DNA of 49,963 bases, from IMG/VR virus record IMGVR_UViG_3300005613_000095, positions 1 to 49,963 of that record. One strand, given 5' to 3'. The DNA comes from a virus. The position numbers and the translations under genes are program-made. The stretch's first letter is position 1, and each line of letters begins with the position of its first letter. Under the pieces are notes generated by a model that saw nothing but the letters and a program-made list of their open reading frames with translations, made no database searches and was not told the DNA's origin. Shown piece by piece: positions 3,346 to 49,963 of this stretch.

Positions 3346-4017
3346 ATGGAAATTAGCAAAAGCAAGAGTTTAATACAAGTAAAAGAAGAGGATTATAAGT
3401 TCTTATATAATCCATCTGACCCACTAGCCATAGTTAATATGGTCCCTCTTTCTTTATCTAATGCCATACGTGCGCTTCCAAGACAATTCTTGGAGATGTC
3501 CAAAGAAGAGCTTGAACAAGGATTAAGATTGTCAAAGACAGATAGGGCTTTTCGAAAATCATTTTGGAGAGAATACAACAGATCGGCAATGCTTGGCGAA
3601 ACAGTTAACCTGAGAGATACGTGTAGGGGCGTCTGTTGTTTTTCATATACGAAAGCGTTAAGAAATAATTCCAGAAAAGTAGCATGGCTAATAAAGAGAG
3701 ACATGGACGACGAGCTAATGATGAGCTTGCTATATGAAAGGAGCATGGAGCGACTTGATGAGATACTGGAATCTGATATAACAAAGGCTAATGGGACGCT
3801 AGATCCAAGCAAGGCGAATGTTGTATTGAAAGCTATACAGATGATTGAGAATAGGGTTAAGGGTATGGCTACACAGCGCACAGAGTCAAAGCATTTAAAG
3901 GTTAGTATAGAAGAGAGAGCAGATGGGTCAGAAACAAGAGAAGAAACTATCGAAAGAATCAGAGAAAAGCTCGGGAAGCTTGAGCAATCTCAGCAACGAA
4001 CAGTTGGTACAGCTTGA
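3346..4017 (+). CDS. Terminase small subunit (putative)
   Basis: 223 residues, directly upstream of and overlapping (95 bases) the large terminase, the usual place of TerS. The sequence is mostly helical with a long middle helical part (residues about 120-175) and a charged C-terminal coil (ETREETIERIREKLGKL). No helix-turn-helix is certain. The family is assigned by position and composition rather than a diagnostic motif. TerS would recognise the packaging site and hand DNA to TerL. Confidence 0.65.
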   Translation: MEISKSKSLIQVKEEDYKFLYNPSDPLAIVNMVPLSLSNAIRALPRQFLEMSKEELEQGLRLSKTDRAFRKSFWREYNRSAMLGETVNLRDTCRGVCCFSYTKALRNNSRKVAWLIKRDMDDELMMSLLYERSMERLDEILESDITKANGTLDPSKANVVLKAIQMIENRVKGMATQRTESKHLKVSIEERADGSETREETIERIREKLGKLEQSQQRTVGTA

Positions 4018-6580
4018 ACAAGAGATAGAGATTAGAGAGGGACTACCTCATCTGTTTGGATGGAAATGGTATCCCTGGCAAAAAGAGTTTTTTGAGTCAA
4101 CCAACAGAGATAATTTTGTATGTGCTGCTAACCAGATTGGTAAGCAGATCCGATTGTTTGCAGAGCTGCCTACCCCTACAGGATGGAAGAAGAATGGTGA
4201 TTTAGTTGTTGGGGATACTGTGTATGGTAGAAACGGAAAAGAAGCAACCGTTACAGCATTGTCAAAGATAGAAGATGTAGATGAGTATATAATAACATTT
4301 GATGATGGTAGTAGTGTTAGTGCATGTCTGGATCATCAATGGATATGCAAAACATCAAAAGAACGTTTCAGAAAAACATATACAAAAAATAGAGACAGGG
4401 ATAAACATAAAGGCGAGAAGTACCCTAATCCAACATATAATCAGTGGGTAGTTAGAACAACAAAAGAAATAATATCTGCTGGCCAATACAGTCCTTTACC
4501 AAAAAGCAATTATACCAAGTGTAGTATCCCTGTATGTGAGCCAGTAGAGTATCCGGTGAAACAGCTCGTCGTCGACCCATATTTACTAGGTTTATTAATC
4601 GGAGATGGAAGTATAACAAGCTCAGTAACATTTTGTACCGGAGATGAAGAGATACGAGACAGTATAGAGCAGTTTAGCTGGAGAAAGAAAGGTAATAAAT
4701 ACCTGGGTGGAGTTAAAGGTATAAGAAGCTCAATAAAAAGATTGGGTCTATTAGGGTCTAGGTCGGACACCAAGTTTATCCCAGATATTTATTTATTGGC
4801 GTCTAAAGAGCAGCGATTTGCTTTGCTGCGCGGGTTAATGGACACAGATGGATCTATCTATGGCAAAAACACATTAGAATACTGTACAGTGTCTGAAAAA
4901 CTAAAAGATAATTTTGTCGAGCTAATAAATTCGCTTGGTGGAATTGTAAACAGTGTAAGCGAAAAGAACCCTTTTTACTACAACAGTGATGGAAAAAAGA
5001 TATCTGGCAAAAAAGCATATAGTATACGGTTTAAGATGCAAGTAAATCCATTTAAACTAAAACGCAAGTCAGATAAATGGAGAAAAAACATAAGGTATAG
5101 GCACGAGAGAATCATAGAAAAGATTGAGAAAAGCAATGGTGGTAAGGTGCCAATGCGTTGCATTGCAGTAGACAACGAGGACCATTCATACTTGGTTGGT
5201 AAAGAGTATATAGTTACACATAATAGCACAATACAAATATGCAAGGCTATACATTGGGCTACAGAAACAAGCCTGTGGCCGAAGTTATGGCACAGCAAGC
5301 CTACGCAGTTTTGGTATTTCTACCCATCGTTAAAACTTGCGTCAAAGGAATACAAAGAGAAATGGGTAAAAGAAATACTCCCAAGAAACGGTTATGAGAA
5401 TGATGATAAGTATGGGTGGAAAGCAGACATACGCCAAAAAGATATATATGCTATAAATTTTAATTCTGGCGTAACCATATATTTTAATTCATATTCTCAG
5501 AACGAAGCGGACTTACAGGCGGGAACAGTTTATTCTATATTTTGCGATGAGGAGCTTCCAGAGAATTTATGGGGAGAATTACAGGCAAGGCTTCGATCAA
5601 CAAGGGGGTATTACCATCAAGTCTTTACTGCCACATTGGGACAGGAAATGTGGCGAAGAACTATTGAGGAGCGCGGTAAGCTTGAGTATTTCACTAGTGC
5701 ATTTAAAAAGCAAGTATCATTATTTGATTGCCAAAAGTATGATGATGAGTCGGATTCTCCATGGACAGATGAGAGGATAAAAGAGGAAATAGCCAGATGC
5801 GGTACGCAAAACGAGGTAGACCGCAGGATAATGGGAAAGTTTGTACTTGAGGGTGGTCTGATATACTCGGCATTTGATAGAAGCAAGAATGTAAAAGAGG
5901 ACCATAAGCTGCCGGGAAACTGGTTAATATACTCTGCCGTTGATATAGGGTCTGGTGGTAAGAATGGACATCCTGCGGCAATAGTTTTTGTTGCTGTATC
6001 TCCCGATTTTCAAAAAGGACGTATGTTCAAATGCTGGAGAGGTGACGCTATACAGACAACTGCTGCAGATATACTGTTAAAATATAGGGAAATGAGGGGC
6101 GATCTGGTTGTACATCAACAGATATACGACTTTGCCTCAAAAGATTTCGAAGTTATTTCTTCAAGGTTAGGCGAAACATTTTTACCTGCAGAGAAAAACC
6201 ACGAAATAGGCGAGCATATAGTTAATTCCCTGTTCCAAAACAACATGTTACACATATATGATAGTGACGAGGAGTCAAGGAAGTTAGTTGCTGAGCTTGT
6301 TGGGCTACGAAAAGAAACACCCAAAAAGGTTGCCCATGATGATCTATGCGATGCTTTAAGATATTGTGTGTGCGCTGTTCCATGGGATTTTAGTTGTGTT
6401 GACACTGGGAAGCTTGAGAAGCAGAAAGAGAATAAGCCAATACGTAATGAGAGAGAAGAATTTATCTTTAAACAGAAGTGTGGGCTTGGGCAGGAACCGC
6501 CTGAGGAGCTAAAAGAATTGTTAAGCCTATGGGCACCTGAGGCGTTTGAGTGGGAGGAATATCATAATGAGTACTACTAA
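3923..6580 (+). CDS. terL: Large terminase, interrupted by intein
   Basis: 885 codons. Residues 75-434 are an intein, leaving a normal 525-residue TerL after splicing. The packaging ATPase begins around WKWYPWQKEFF (48-57). Its Walker A motif NQIGK/ST is cut by the intein between K74 and S435. The Walker B-like segment is VYSIFCDEELP. The C-terminal RNase H-like nuclease shows VDIGSGG and HDDLCDALRY, holding its metal-binding aspartates. TerL cuts and pumps phage DNA into proheads. Until the intein is removed the ATP site is broken, so packaging depends on splicing. ATG 3923 follows a GAAGAGAGAG purine run; a TTG 19 codons later is an alternative. Confidence 0.95.
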   Translation: MGQKQEKKLSKESEKSSGSLSNLSNEQLVQLEQEIEIREGLPHLFGWKWYPWQKEFFESTNRDNFVCAANQIGKQIRLFAELPTPTGWKKNGDLVVGDTVYGRNGKEATVTALSKIEDVDEYIITFDDGSSVSACLDHQWICKTSKERFRKTYTKNRDRDKHKGEKYPNPTYNQWVVRTTKEIISAGQYSPLPKSNYTKCSIPVCEPVEYPVKQLVVDPYLLGLLIGDGSITSSVTFCTGDEEIRDSIEQFSWRKKGNKYLGGVKGIRSSIKRLGLLGSRSDTKFIPDIYLLASKEQRFALLRGLMDTDGSIYGKNTLEYCTVSEKLKDNFVELINSLGGIVNSVSEKNPFYYNSDGKKISGKKAYSIRFKMQVNPFKLKRKSDKWRKNIRYRHERIIEKIEKSNGGKVPMRCIAVDNEDHSYLVGKEYIVTHNSTIQICKAIHWATETSLWPKLWHSKPTQFWYFYPSLKLASKEYKEKWVKEILPRNGYENDDKYGWKADIRQKDIYAINFNSGVTIYFNSYSQNEADLQAGTVYSIFCDEELPENLWGELQARLRSTRGYYHQVFTATLGQEMWRRTIEERGKLEYFTSAFKKQVSLFDCQKYDDESDSPWTDERIKEEIARCGTQNEVDRRIMGKFVLEGGLIYSAFDRSKNVKEDHKLPGNWLIYSAVDIGSGGKNGHPAAIVFVAVSPDFQKGRMFKCWRGDAIQTTAADILLKYREMRGDLVVHQQIYDFASKDFEVISSRLGETFLPAEKNHEIGEHIVNSLFQNNMLHIYDSDEESRKLVAELVGLRKETPKKVAHDDLCDALRYCVCAVPWDFSCVDTGKLEKQKENKPIRNEREEFIFKQKCGLGQEPPEELKELLSLWAPEAFEWEEYHNEYY
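4145..5224 (+). mobile_element. LAGLIDADG intein, class 3-like
   Basis: 360 residues inserted in the TerL Walker A motif. The C-terminal junction is VTHN followed by Ser (+1 nucleophile). The first intein residue is Gln, not Cys or Ser. The W-C-T set that defines class 3 inteins is present: Trp140 in DHQWIC (block B), Cys413 in RCIAVD (block F) and Thr432 in VTHN (block G). In such inteins the block F Cys starts splicing. The centre carries a homing endonuclease with two LAGLIDADG motifs, YLLGLLIGDG (about 218-227) and LLRGLMDTDG (about 299-308), so the element should be mobile between intein-free terminases. Confidence 0.9.
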
Positions 6581-33683: not shown

Positions 33684-34118
33684 CTATATTGGCATTGCAA
33701 ATTTTATATTCTCATACTTCCAATCACCTAGCCTACGCAACTTAACATATGCGTCCGCTGCCCTTGCTTCACTTTCAGTATTAATATGTCTCCCTCCATT
33801 TGATGCACCTAATGTATACCCTAATCCTGCGTATATTTCAACATGGTAGATGGAACCGTTATCCCTATGGTAGAACACCAGACAACCAAATTTAGGCGAT
33901 TCTATAGCTTTCTTGTTGCTCTTAAGTATATTATAGATACTGGCAGCAGAATGGTCCTCGTCATCTTTACATGTACCAAGTGCTTTTAAATACTCCATAG
34001 CAAAACCAGAGCAATCATACCCTTCAAGCGGATTATCTCCTCCCCAATTATACCTTGTTCCAATGAAACTACTCATATATTTTAGTGCCATATAGATAAT
34101 TATTTGTTTCAAAACCAT
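33684..34118 (-). CDS. NlpC/P60 peptidase, probable endolysin
   Basis: 144 residues. RYNWGGDNPLEGYDCSGFAM (catalytic Cys36 in DCSG), YHVEIYAGLG (His92) and a later RHIN (about 110) form the Cys-His-polar triad of NlpC/P60 cell-wall peptidases that cut peptidoglycan stems. No signal peptide or wall-binding domain, so release would need a holin. It overlaps the primase by 10 bases and is the only clear lysin in the genome, unusually placed amid replication genes. Confidence 0.85.
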   Translation of the reverse strand: MVLKQIIIYMALKYMSSFIGTRYNWGGDNPLEGYDCSGFAMEYLKALGTCKDDEDHSAASIYNILKSNKKAIESPKFGCLVFYHRDNGSIYHVEIYAGLGYTLGASNGGRHINTESEARAADAYVKLRRLGDWKYENIKFAMPI

Positions 34119-37387: not shown

Positions 37388-37780
37388 TTAGATGTGTTCG
37401 GTAATACTCATTATGAATATTGCCGGACTCCCTTCATCTGTCATTTTGCATATAGCTTTAATTGGTATATCTATATGTCCATCTGATGTAGCTATTCTAG
37501 TTTCATAACTTATGAGTGCTTCCTGCCCTTTCTTCTCTCTGTCATGCTGCCGTATTCTGAATAGCAGGGTAGTTAACAGATTGAATACCCTGCTCGTTTG
37601 CGTTTGGCCAAACAATTTTTCCTCTTCGCTAGCCTCAAGCATGTCATACAATCTTCTTGTAAGATATACTGGATATAGAAAGCCTACTTTAGACGATTGT
37701 GCCGTTATGTCTAGTATTACATTTTTGCTGAGAAGCTCGTCTATTGTAAGCTTCCCTCCATGTATAAGTGTGAATTCCAT
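37388..37780 (-). CDS. Hypothetical protein, 130 aa
   Basis: The ATG overlaps the amidotransferase stop (TAATG), so it is coupled to that gene and may belong to its pathway. MEFTLIHGGKLTIDELLSKN then LYPVYLTRRLYDMLEASEEE and ISYETRIATSDGHIDIPIK. Mixed alpha/beta, no motif recognised. Confidence 0.6.
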   Translation of the reverse strand: MEFTLIHGGKLTIDELLSKNVILDITAQSSKVGFLYPVYLTRRLYDMLEASEEEKLFGQTQTSRVFNLLTTLLFRIRQHDREKKGQEALISYETRIATSDGHIDIPIKAICKMTDEGSPAIFIMSITEHI

Positions 37781-38766
37781 TAGTTTAACAACTCCTTGTT
37801 GTTTACAGACTTAACAATCTCATGGACATCTTCAAGTTCTCTTGCTATCTTTGAATATCTTGACTTAACGCTATTGGTAATAGGAGTTGTTTTTCTTTTT
37901 TTTTGGCTCACACCACTGTTAGCATTTTCGGACATCCAGCTATCATACTCCCTATAGTTCCTATTTGATGTCTCTGTATTATAGTATGTACTATATTTTG
38001 TATGGCTATAATCATATTTGCTGCTTAATGTTGCCGCCTTCATCTCTAGTATCATTTTCCCTGTAGTTGCATCCCTGCGCAATAATGTGTTATTCGGTAC
38101 TGCAAAATAATCGTCAAGTTTATATCCAGCAAGCTTTATAGCATCTTTTGCATACTCTATTGACGTGCTATATATAAATCCCTTTACATTTTTAACCGTT
38201 ACTTCGTATAGCTGCGTAGATGAGCTTTTAAAAATATCAACGCAGTAGCTTCCATTTGATTTAGACAGGACGCAGCAAGCAAAATATCCATTACCTCGTA
38301 AAAGAGTTTCGTGTAAGAATTTATAGTTATCCGGGTTATGGGTTATGTTTAAACTTAAGTATGCTGTTAATATTCCTTCACTATCACATGTTCCTTCATG
38401 AAACTTCATACCATGTTTTTCTACCACTCCATTATGTATTAACGCTGTGTTATTTCTAACAAACGGGTGTGTATTTTGGATGATCTTTGAGCTTGTTTTT
38501 AATCGTGCATGTGTCAGCAGAGTTGAGACATTATCATTTCGTTTACCTGTTTTCCTGAATAGTTTACCCTGCTCCATCTTTTCTATCTTCCACGCATCTT
38601 CAGGATTTATAAACTTTTCAGTCCACATCTTTTTACTTTCTGGAGAATACCCCGCCATACCAAAACCATCGTTATCATATCTTGTTATAATTGGTCCAGC
38701 GAAACCTGCTATTTTCCATAATGTTTTATAATTGTCAAACCCTACACACGTAAAAATCTTACACAT
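37780..38766 (-). CDS. Class II glutamine amidotransferase (Ntn hydrolase)
   Basis: 328 residues. MCKIF puts Cys at position 2, the N-terminal nucleophile after Met removal. THARLKTSS (85-93), NTHPF (98-102), HNG (111-113) and DSEG (128-131) are the glutamine-binding signatures of GATase II domains. The enzyme would release ammonia from glutamine. There is no synthase domain, so another protein must use the ammonia, most likely the amidoligase just upstream. The C-terminal third (about 230-328) is Ser/Tyr/Lys-rich and of unknown role. AGGAGG precedes the ATG. Confidence 0.88.
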   Translation of the reverse strand: MCKIFTCVGFDNYKTLWKIAGFAGPIITRYDNDGFGMAGYSPESKKMWTEKFINPEDAWKIEKMEQGKLFRKTGKRNDNVSTLLTHARLKTSSKIIQNTHPFVRNNTALIHNGVVEKHGMKFHEGTCDSEGILTAYLSLNITHNPDNYKFLHETLLRGNGYFACCVLSKSNGSYCVDIFKSSSTQLYEVTVKNVKGFIYSTSIEYAKDAIKLAGYKLDDYFAVPNNTLLRRDATTGKMILEMKAATLSSKYDYSHTKYSTYYNTETSNRNYREYDSWMSENANSGVSQKKRKTTPITNSVKSRYSKIARELEDVHEIVKSVNNKELLN

Positions 38767-38781
38767 TCATTCCTCCTGATA

Positions 38782-40161
38782 CTAATAATATCTATAGTTG
38801 GTGTTTATTATATAGTCACCATGGTTTGGTATTACAACCTCGCTACGATCTTCTGGAAAATAAAAGTTTTTATCCAGTTCCGATTCCTTTTTTATTGAAT
38901 CAGATATTGTAATAGGCTCAAAGTTTTTTATCCATTTGGGTCCTTCAATTTTATAATGCTCTGCATACGCATTTATTCTACCCAAAATATACTCTATCAT
39001 ATCACTACCTAAATGTAGATACTCCGATAACATTTTTGGTGTAACATCAAACTCCTTTTTCTCTGGCACCTTACGTGTTGATTTTATTGCCTCCAGTATT
39101 CTTATCCAGTTGTTTATTTTTGTCGCATTTGTAGTGCCAACATGCATTCGTATCTCTATTGTACCAAATTTACTTAGTGCTCGCGGGTTTATCCCTGTGT
39201 ACCTATCTCCCCAATCACTGGGAAACCGTTTATTAAATGTATTTACACGCTTAGAAAATGTTGACTCCCTGAATCCCGGATTCATTGCATATAACAAGTC
39301 TTGCCATAGACAAAAATTATACCATATTCTATCTAGGGTAGATTGTGTATACCCTCTTAAATCCAAGTGAACATGTAGGCCACATGATTTATTCACGGCA
39401 GCATTAACTTCCTCTTTGTTGTTGAGGACTTTACACACTTTTTCAACTGTTTTACGTATGGTTGACGACTGATCCAATATAGTAATCTCACACTCATTAG
39501 TGTATCCGTTTGTTCTGTGTATACTTCCATCTCCTTTTATGTGGCAGTATTCTTCCAACCCGTTTTCCGATATAAACCCTGCTATTGAGTCATTGCTAAC
39601 TGTAGATATAAACTCTAGCTCAACACCGGTATGTCTTTTCTGCGAACCCGGCTCTTTCCTATTAAATGCTACCGCGGTGTTTTTACGTTTTGATATTGCT
39701 TTAAATGCTTCCATTGGAGTTTTATATGGCCTATGCTCACCGTTTACAGCATTGCACACCAGTAAACCTCCGGCTTTATACCCGGTAAAGGCAAAACCTT
39801 TTAGTGAATATGCTTTCCTCTCGGTTTTAATTGACCGCAGCTTCCTACGCTTTTCTTGCACCTGTGCCAGTATACGCTTTTTCAAGCCAATAATAACATG
39901 ATGCACGTCATCAGATGATATTGCTATTCCGTTTAATGAAATCGCGGGTATGTTTTTTGTTGCAATTCTGGTCAGAGTTATCTTCTTGTACGGCTTGTTG
40001 CCATCAGCTTTATTCTTTAGTGATACAGACAAAAATTTAAGGTAATCATCGTTAGGATATAGTGCTAAAATCTTCTTTGTAATAAGGTATAAGCCGTATA
40101 TTTTAGTTAGATTTTCTTTTTTCTCCTTTACCTCTTCTACTGCTAGCGTGTATAGCTTCAA
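38782..40161 (-). CDS. Amidoligase (COOH-NH2 ligase, Amidoligase_2-like)
   Basis: 459 residues from TTG 40161 (AAGGA upstream); a GTG at 40188 lacks a site. The glutamine synthetase-like amidoligase core is clear: GVELEF (179-184), KGDGSI (209-214) with ECEI, CGLHVHLD (260-267), and GTIEIRMHVGT (about 333-343). These carry the acidic, His and Arg residues that hold ATP-Mg. Known families join a carboxyl to an amine with ATP and are often encoded beside class II amidotransferases, as here. An N-terminal domain (1-170) is not recognised. Substrate unknown. Confidence 0.88.
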   Translation of the reverse strand: MKLYTLAVEEVKEKKENLTKIYGLYLITKKILALYPNDDYLKFLSVSLKNKADGNKPYKKITLTRIATKNIPAISLNGIAISSDDVHHVIIGLKKRILAQVQEKRRKLRSIKTERKAYSLKGFAFTGYKAGGLLVCNAVNGEHRPYKTPMEAFKAISKRKNTAVAFNRKEPGSQKRHTGVELEFISTVSNDSIAGFISENGLEEYCHIKGDGSIHRTNGYTNECEITILDQSSTIRKTVEKVCKVLNNKEEVNAAVNKSCGLHVHLDLRGYTQSTLDRIWYNFCLWQDLLYAMNPGFRESTFSKRVNTFNKRFPSDWGDRYTGINPRALSKFGTIEIRMHVGTTNATKINNWIRILEAIKSTRKVPEKKEFDVTPKMLSEYLHLGSDMIEYILGRINAYAEHYKIEGPKWIKNFEPITISDSIKKESELDKNFYFPEDRSEVVIPNHGDYIINTNYRYY

Positions 40162-40585
40162 GGCTCTTCCTTCCTGCCAGCCATCCACCTAAATCTTTAA
40201 ACAGCTCTATCGCATCATTTTCGCCAATAAAAACTCCATGAAAAAGCAATCCATTTTCTGCTAGAGTTAATATATTGTTACGTTTTTTATCTATTGGTAA
40301 TAATGTTTCTATATCATCAGAATGCAAAAATACTAGCTGGCTAAGCTCTCTTGGTGTCGAATATGGAACAGTATAATAGCGTTTAATATATATGCCTATT
40401 TTACTATCACTGAAAACATGATAGACCCGATAATCCATTCCCTTGTCAAACATTACATCCATTGTTTTCTTATCATATCCATATGTTAGCCCGTCTTTTG
40501 TGCATCCTGGCAAATCTTCTGGTTGTTTTAACTCTATATACACAATGTCTCCGTCTTCTATACCTTTAAAATTTATTTTACCCAT
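40103..40585 (-). CDS. Hypothetical protein in amidoligase cluster
   Basis: 160 residues from ATG 40585 (GGGAAAG upstream). The end overlaps the amidoligase start by 59 bases. MGKINFKGIEDGDIVYIELK and LVFLHSDDIETLLPI suggest a beta-rich small domain, with a basic tail (SSRRGKGEKRKSN). No cyclotransferase signature. Coupling suggests a function with the amidoligase. Confidence 0.55.
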   Translation of the reverse strand: MGKINFKGIEDGDIVYIELKQPEDLPGCTKDGLTYGYDKKTMDVMFDKGMDYRVYHVFSDSKIGIYIKRYYTVPYSTPRELSQLVFLHSDDIETLLPIDKKRNNILTLAENGLLFHGVFIGENDAIELFKDLGGWLAGRKSLEAIHASSRRGKGEKRKSN

Positions 40586-41090
40586 ATCTTTCCCATTCAG
40601 CATCAAACACTATGTCACCAGTATTTCCCTTTTTGTTACGTATATATTTCTCGACTGGGCTTCCGGTTTCTATGCCAGACTTCCATAGTAAATCAATTGG
40701 TACTATTTTACCTTTCCCATTATCCATGAGAGCATTGTTCCCGCCGGTAACTCTAACCTCACCGCATTTACATGATGCAACATGGTATTTATACACAGAA
40801 TATACAGTTTCTTTACATAATGGGCAATATACGCCATTCATATATCGTAACTTGTTCATGCCTTTCTTGCTTAGCCCTTTTACCTTCCATCCAGAATGAG
40901 TATCTCTGTATATCAGCATGAATCTTTCCTCTCCTTTTGCTGGACTACCATTTTTATATACAGCACAAGGAAAATACTGGTTTGGGAATACGCCCCATGT
41001 CCCGATATATTCCATATTGCCACCAAACTTTTCATTTACCTTTTCGTGTCTTATCCCATAGACATTGTATTTTTCTAAATCACCAATCAT
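40578..41090 (-). CDS. Zinc-ribbon protein in amidoligase cluster
   Basis: 170 residues from ATG 41090 (GGAG upstream; stop-start overlap TAATG). YCPLCKETVYSVYKYHVASC then KCGEVRVTGG forms a zinc knuckle (about 112-140). The N-terminal part contains IGTWGVFPNQYFPCAVYKNG and FMLIYRDTHSGWKVKG. No family recognised. It may bind the substrate of the nearby enzymes or nucleic acid. Confidence 0.6.
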   Translation of the reverse strand: MIGDLEKYNVYGIRHEKVNEKFGGNMEYIGTWGVFPNQYFPCAVYKNGSPAKGEERFMLIYRDTHSGWKVKGLSKKGMNKLRYMNGVYCPLCKETVYSVYKYHVASCKCGEVRVTGGNNALMDNGKGKIVPIDLLWKSGIETGSPVEKYIRNKKGNTGDIVFDAEWERYG

Positions 41091-41943: not shown

Positions 41944-42240
41944 TTATATACAATCATCACCGCCATCGCCACAGCCAGAGCCACAGCCAGAGCCATTACC
42001 ATCGCCACAGCCAGAGCCACAGCCAGAGCCATTACCATCGCCATAGCCATCGCGATAGAGGCCGTAGCCAATTCCAGAGCCATTGCCAGAGCCATTGCCA
42101 GTTCCCGCACCATCGCCATAACCGTCGCCATCACCATAGCCTGACCCACAGCCAGAGCCATTGCCATCACCCCAAACATTGCTACTACGGAAAATATTAT
42201 GACCATGATACCCTATTTTAATCCTCAATGTATTTATCAT
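41944..42240 (-). CDS. Gly-X repeat protein, copy 4
   Basis: 98 residues. Head MINTLRIKIGYHGHNIFRSS, then about 75 residues where every second residue is Gly and the others are mostly Asp, Asn, Ser, Tyr and Cys (blocks such as GDGNGSGCGSGCGDG, present several times). It has the most Cys of the four copies. ATG overlaps the stop of copy 3 (ATGA). See the array entry for origin. Function unknown; disordered or rod-like, possibly metal-binding or a substrate for modification. Confidence 0.7.
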   Translation of the reverse strand: MINTLRIKIGYHGHNIFRSSNVWGDGNGSGCGSGYGDGDGYGDGAGTGNGSGNGSGIGYGLYRDGYGDGNGSGCGSGCGDGNGSGCGSGCGDGGDDCI

Positions 42241-42428
42241 ATACCACCACTGCCATCACCAGAGCCAGCGCCATAACCGGGGCCGAAGCCATCGCCATAG
42301 CCAATGCCATCGCCATAGCCGGAGCCATCACCATTGCCCCCACCGTTGCCATAGCCGGAGCCATCACCATCGCCAGAGACCATATTATGACCATGATGAC
42401 GTGCTTTAATCTTCAATGTATTTATCAT
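42237..42428 (-). CDS. Gly-X repeat protein, copy 3
   Basis: 63 residues, the shortest copy. Head MINTLKIKARHHGHNMVSGD, then (Gly-X)n with Asp, Ser, Tyr, Asn, and GDGFGPGYGAGSGDG near the end. ATG overlaps the stop of copy 2 by 4 bases (ATGA). No Cys in this copy. Confidence 0.7.
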   Translation of the reverse strand: MINTLKIKARHHGHNMVSGDGDGSGYGNGGGNGDGSGYGDGIGYGDGFGPGYGAGSGDGSGGI

Positions 42429-42685
42429 ATACTACCACTACCATCACCATAGCCATTTCCATTTCCATAGCCATAGCCATAGCCACTGCCATTTCCTCTT
42501 CCGCAGCTATCGCCATCGCCATTGCCATAGCCAATTCCATCACCAGAACCATAGCCATTGCGATAGCCATTACCATAGCCAAAGCCATTGCCGGAGCCAT
42601 CGCCATCGCCATTGCAATAGCAATTGCTACTACCAGAGATCATGCCATTACCATGATGCCTTATTTTAATCTTCATATTCACCAT
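42425..42685 (-). CDS. Gly-X repeat protein, copy 2
   Basis: 86 residues from ATG 42685 (GAAGGA upstream). Head MVNMKIKIRHHGNGMISGSS, a diverged form of MINTLKIK. Then NCYCNGDGDGSGNGFGYG and further Gly-X. The same frame stays open upstream through copy 1 DNA, but this is a by-product of the 6-base repeat and lacks a start. Confidence 0.65.
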   Translation of the reverse strand: MVNMKIKIRHHGNGMISGSSNCYCNGDGDGSGNGFGYGNGYRNGYGSGDGIGYGNGDGDSCGRGNGSGYGYGYGNGNGYGDGSGSI

Positions 42686-42911
42686 TTCCTTCACCAGAGC
42701 CAGAGCAATAGCCATCTCCATAGCCATCTCCATTGCCATTGCCAGAGCCATAGCCTGAGCCATAACCAGAGCCATCGGCATGCCCATGACCATCGCCAGC
42801 GCCATTGCCATGGCCATAGCCATCGCCACCGTCATATTCATAGTCATAGCCATCGCAAGAACCGGGGCCATTGCTATGATACCCTATTTTAATCCTCAAT
42901 GTATTTGACAT
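42666..42911 (-). CDS. Gly-X repeat protein, copy 1
   Basis: 81 residues. Head MSNTLRIKIGYHSNGPGSCD, then (Gly-X)n with acidic and aromatic X (GYDYEYDGGDGYGHG). Its first codons lie inside the end of the DUF6948-like gene in another frame. Its own last residues (GEYED) reuse the old YIED-stop of that gene, a duplication scar. Confidence 0.7.
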   Translation of the reverse strand: MSNTLRIKIGYHSNGPGSCDGYDYEYDGGDGYGHGNGAGDGHGHADGSGYGSGYGSGNGNGDGYGDGYCSGSGEGNGEYED

Positions 42912-49840: not shown

Positions 49841-49963
49841 AAGGTCCACTAAACACAGACAAGGAAAAACAAAAAGGTCATCTAAACACAGACAAAAGGT
49901 CCACTAAACACAGACAAGAAAGAACTGTTTTTTACCTCTACACTCAGACGGGACAGCTTAAAA
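49841..49963. repeat. Terminal direct repeat, right copy
   Basis: Exact copy of 1-123. Joining the two copies places the minus-strand gene run (starting at 49243) and the plus-strand genes (starting at 544) back to back around one control region of about 1.1 kb. Confidence 0.95.

Follow-up and report, generated by a model that had tools for sequence, protein, structure and literature searches.

Amidoligases of the Amidoligase_2 family paired with a class II glutamine amidotransferase are already known in phages, with a predicted role at the cell wall, and are not a new observation. The two occur together in LUZ24-like phages (PMC3890496, PMC3517423) and form a two-gene system in the OM43 phages MEP401 and MEP402 (PMC10580990), while in RIO-1-like podoviruses they belong to a larger gene set, the "peptidoglycan modification cassette", for which a role in blocking superinfection was put forward (PMC5498523, after Iyer et al., 2009; Hardies et al., 2013). 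An amidotransferase and an "ATP-graze" enzyme from the early region of phage SU10 were seen by proteomics (PMC4281155), and an evolved Pseudomonas phage had missense changes in both its amidoligase and an aminotransferase-like gene (PMC11450229). In the literature on these pairs we found no demonstrated activity or substrate, nor a demonstration of ATP-dependent activity for Amidoligase_2.

The window analyzed here, the whole of the 49,963-base virus contig IMGVR_UViG_3300005613_000095, encodes the same two enzyme families as the Arthrobacter phages Kovu (97–98) and Ottawa (65–66) and as MEP401/402, at ∼21–24% identity to these two-gene systems. Order and orientation, with the ligase directly ahead of the transferase, are shared with the Arthrobacter phages. 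However, a cyclotransferase is annotated next to the pair in Kovu, and the cyclotransferase profile matches an ORF in Ottawa, whereas the window has neither, and it also lacks the member of a small partner protein family that follows the pair in Ottawa. With the peptidoglycan modification cassette of the LUZ24, PaP3, RIO-1 and phiEco32 type (PMC5498523, PMC3890496) it shares Amidoligase_2, the class II amidotransferase and a location in the non-structural region, but not the COOH-NH2 ligase, ATP-grasp and gamma-glutamyl cyclotransferase genes: profiles built from cassette phages found none of the three in this terminally repeated genome, which thus carries a minimal two-enzyme form. YbdK/GCS2 carboxylate-amine ligases have the fold of the window ligase and its ExE, GLHVH and TIEFR-type motifs, but belong to another Pfam family and are not known to depend on a partner amidotransferase. 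MurT-GatD of Staphylococcus aureus (PMC3267633), in which a ligase and a separate glutaminase amidate the wall peptide, is a functional analogy only, its Mur-ligase and class I amidotransferase families being unrelated to either window protein.

Phage Genome and Gene Order of the Module

The ends of the contig form an exact 123-bp direct repeat (positions 1–123 and 49841–49963); IMG/VR classes the record as without end repeats. Given this repeat, the window very likely represents the entire genome, ∼49.84 kb long, of a podovirus-like phage. Virion and packaging genes include a P22-like portal, an SU10-type adaptor and a large terminase. Within the terminase gene (3923–6580, 885 codons) lies a segment of LAGLIDADG homing-endonuclease type that is probably an intein; over this part, helicases and terminases of other phages match best. 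Genes run rightward to ∼28 kb and leftward thereafter, and the pair lies in the leftward block together with genes for helicase, RusA, NlpC/P60 wall hydrolase, primase-like, AAA and exonuclease-like proteins. The hydrolase (33684–34118) is a free-standing protein of 144 aa whose gene adjoins that of the primase-like protein. At 41944–42911, immediately upstream of the genes analyzed here, is a run of short leftward ORFs of glycine-rich repeats (GYGDGxGxG), with 6–36 bp tandem repeats that can be read through in more than one frame; each ORF ends close to a recurring MI/S-NTLRIKI start.

A portal protein scan of IMG/VR returned a single relative (L129:3550-5571, 43% identity) on a 9.7-kb fragment that stops short of the amidoligase module, and scans of viral contigs with the ligase, transferase, terminase or primase as single proteins returned none. 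The phage is a member of a sparsely sampled lineage. Defence-system models had no match in the window.

In order of transcription the module comprises a 102-aa protein, a DUF7695 protein, a ∼160-aa protein, the ligase, the transferase and a 130-aa protein, with the following features:

40578..41090, minus strand: putatively coupled protein of ∼170 aa with a DUF7695 zinc-ribbon-like segment (28.9 bits, cut-off 25; start overlaps the preceding stop)
40103..40585, minus strand: putatively coupled protein of ∼160 aa (ORF and overlapping start; no family match)
38782..40188, minus strand: predicted Amidoligase_2 carboxylate-amine ligase (Pfam E-value 2.9e-13, invariant motifs, model matching YbdK and glutamine synthetases)
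37780..38766, minus strand: predicted class II (Ntn) glutamine amidotransferase, nucleophile Cys2 (catalytic columns, model matching GlmS glutaminase, PurF and EgtC)
37388..37780, minus strand: putatively coupled downstream protein of 130 aa (TAATG overlap; DUF6573 at E 0.015, below cut-off)

The ligase ORF (40188..38782, 468 codons) can start at a GTG at 40188 or at a TTG at 40161, the latter being better placed, with AGGAAGG ahead. Its stop is separated by 15 bp from the transferase ORF (38766..37780, 328 aa, N-terminus MCK), whose ATG is preceded by AGGAGG; the two genes are thus adjacent and co-directional, as had been noted from the letters before any search was run. That sequence-only reading also placed two coupled proteins upstream and a coupled 130-residue protein downstream, and the ORFs agree: 40585..40103 and 41090..40578 overlap their neighbors, the start at 41090 coincides with the boundary it gave, and the 130-aa ORF (37780..37388) begins within the transferase stop (TAATG). 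Given these overlapping or near-touching stops and starts, and the clear AGGAGG at the transferase, the genes of the module are likely to be translationally coupled. The "zinc knuckle" of the sequence-only reading, in one upstream protein, was mistaken, since the cysteine spacing there is CX2C-X14-CXC, zinc-ribbon-like as in DUF7695, and not CX2CX4HX4C.

The Ligase and the Transferase

The profile searches proposed with the sequence-only reading placed the ligase above and the transferase below the family cut-offs. The ligase matched Amidoligase_2 (PF12224) with 50.7 bits (E 2.9e-13, cut-off 22), and also the PHROG amidoligases. In an alignment with 58 viral relatives, G188, E190, E192, D220, E232, G270, H272 and H274 were invariant, as were R307, N334, G342, E345, R347 and W361; these include the metal- and ATP-site residues E190, E192, E232, H272, H274, E345 and R347, with the motifs ExE, GLHVH and TIEIR. 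The AlphaFold2 model was confident over approximately residues 186–420, the catalytic core, and poor elsewhere, and an N-terminal extra region of ∼180 residues lies outside the aligned core. The first 23 matches of this model in the PDB were YbdK-type ligases and glutamine synthetases, with YbdK the best and GshA and gamma-glutamylcysteine synthetase ranking lower; TM-scores were low because around half of the chain was poorly modelled. Sequence-only PDB searches gave nothing meaningful, whereas the structure model did give matches. In profile–profile alignment (hhalign), ExE and GLHVH aligned with two GCS2 ligases (E 8e-4, low probability), and bacterial glutamine synthetases gave no match, GCS2 being the one family matched. 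An ATP site, on which the earlier amidoligase assignment had been staked, is predicted in that the model has the fold and motifs of YbdK and glutamine synthetases. We conclude that the protein is an Amidoligase_2 member with a modelled GS/GCS fold and predicted ATP-dependent ligase activity.

The transferase fell below the Pfam cut-offs for both GATase_6 (E 3.1e-4, 21.2 bits, cut-off 27) and GATase_4 (E 2.2e-3, 17.4 bits, cut-off 23). It nevertheless keeps all columns invariant among its phage relatives (M1, C2, H86, R88, T91, N98, H100, P101, H111, N112, G113, and D128), and Cys2 and the glutamine-pocket residues (C2, R88, T91, N112, G113, D128) are common to it and to relatives that score well in Pfam. 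Its model (mean pLDDT 70; confidence is low in the C-terminal tail, beyond about residue 248) matched GlmS glutaminase in the PDB (Foldseek E 1.6e-9, probability 1.00), in addition to PurF and EgtC; in a library of viral structures it also matched phage amidotransferases. From the PDB, a profile of five phage transferases, the window's included, retrieved GlmS, PurF and asparagine synthetase. The MCK start and an NDGFG stretch resemble short forms in locus L018 and phage C75C1, unlike the MCG...RG-ATG form of the majority of phage transferases; no stretch in the transferase alignments was conserved enough for a scan. The earlier identification of a free-standing Ntn amidotransferase with nucleophile Cys2 thus stands on catalytic columns and fold, with the glutamine pocket retained, and by its model the protein is a divergent member of class II.

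The main rival interpretation comes from the same structural matches. EgtC is among the best for the transferase, which has a weak NCBIfam match to it too, and the ligase's best match, YbdK, acts on the gamma-carboxyl of glutamate; the Ntn protein might then be a gamma-glutamyl amide hydrolase, trimming a gamma-glutamyl conjugate made by the ligase. Many sister loci carry a gamma-glutamyl cyclotransferase, in one case fused to the amidotransferase, which also favors this interpretation. However, GlmS and PurF match the transferase equally well or better and the sister transferases are mostly of the GlmS-like form, and we regard EgtC-like trimming as unlikely.

Recurrence of the Pair and a Small Protein Family Beside Related Ligases

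Co-occurrence rates for viruses describe a sample of the best 80 of 244 IMG/VR ligase loci, which formed 59 clusters at 90% ligase identity. A transferase was present in 23 of these 80 loci (11 of 59 clusters), in every case on the ligase strand and starting 8–391 bp downstream, and none was found elsewhere in the 0.79 Mb of locus DNA. Within the same best 80 of 244, the remaining 48 of 59 clusters had no transferase nearby, indicating that the ligase can do without one. By tblastn, 36 of 50,697 phage records had a related ligase and none a transferase detectably similar at the single-sequence level. Among 11 annotated phage neighborhoods read, seven contained a class II amidotransferase: Arthrobacter Ottawa and Kovu, Pseudomonas TL (where the annotation shows it only as miscellaneous features, in split form), Vibrio 1.293.O, Aeromonas APT65, Pseudoalteromonas Slicky01, and C75C1. 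The neighborhood survey therefore shows the pair recurring in other phages, contrary to the possibility, raised with the sequence-only reading, that the homologues never occur together. None of 27 bacterial-genome loci had a transferase beside the ligase, which in this sample makes the pairing a property of phages. The C75C1 protein (L007:6705-7598), encoded near an Amidoligase_2 gene and annotated as cyclotransferase only, is a fusion in which a short domain resembling class II amidotransferases is joined to a gamma-glutamyl cyclotransferase.

In 42 of 59 viral clusters (best 80 of 244 loci) and 24 of 27 bacterial-genome loci, the gene immediately after Amidoligase_2, or after its amidotransferase, encodes a member of one family of small proteins (∼80–110 aa) and is in every case on the same strand. 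Examples, from loci L002–L119, are L115:6800-7036, L017:1360-1617, L005:6541-6810, and L049:7776-8141. The family profile was seeded with the gene that follows the transferase in other phages; as a held-out check, a profile from the bacterial loci alone picked out 42 of 7,786 ORFs, each of them a member found before, and added no other at E < 1e-3. Pfam has no family for this protein, and only single members touch PHROGs, with function there unassigned. The family may represent an adaptor or a substrate.

Small coupled genes on both sides of the pair in the window, together with one protein family adjoining most related ligases elsewhere, raise the alternative that the target of the pair is a protein or peptide encoded by the phage, such as a coupled small protein, rather than the wall. 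Yet the other ligase loci contain no relatives of the window's coupled small genes, and the window itself has no recognizable copy of the small family; a phage-protein target is accordingly improbable. The broader proposal, in which phage Amidoligase_2 systems modify peptides or proteins with a dedicated small partner, a role filled here by a coupled protein that the pair would amidate, strikes us as quite unlikely too.

Proposed Function of the Pair

We infer the partnership, the transfer of ammonia, the substrate and the purpose; the mechanism follows the known chemistry of both enzyme families. The two proteins would form a two-subunit, glutamine-dependent amidating enzyme, in which Cys2 of the transferase hydrolyzes glutamine and frees ammonia, and the ligase, with its GS/GCS fold, uses bound ATP and metal, converts a substrate carboxylate to an acyl phosphate and joins it to the freed ammonia or, less likely, to another amine. 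Profiles, active-site columns, models and recurrent pairing all support this division of labor, which the sequence-only reading had put forward, and we consider coupled chemistry of this kind somewhat more probable than its alternatives taken together. The missense changes in both genes of the evolved Pseudomonas phage (PMC11450229) also speak for it, whereas the transferase's scores below the Pfam cut-offs and the 48 of 59 viral clusters (best 80 of 244 loci) with no transferase nearby count against it. The substrate would most likely be a glutamyl-type carboxylate in a peptide.

The substrates suggested at the outset ranged from a peptide, a protein or the cell wall to a DNA base. Of these the cell wall, the published prediction, leads, with the host peptidoglycan stem peptide as the foremost candidate; by acting on it the phage would alter the host wall during infection. 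Published reasoning (PMC5498523) and the NlpC/P60 wall hydrolase in the same block point weakly to the wall, which we propose tentatively as a possible target. A role in DNA base modification could be argued from the class II amidotransferase domains of phage 7-deazaguanine pathways and from a match of the transferase model to a Vid5 protein annotated as 7-cyano-7-deazaguanine synthase, but the ligase is of the wrong kind for that pathway and no base-modification gene was present among the window proteins scanned. With nothing seen in the genome to support it and no pathway gene among the proteins scanned, this role is very improbable and was set aside.

Phage amidoligase/amidotransferase modules are widespread, and the substrate proposed for them is so far a prediction. 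The minimal two-enzyme version described here is a convenient system for finding the product, and the small partner family, the most useful lead of this analysis, offers a concrete and testable one across phages and prophages.
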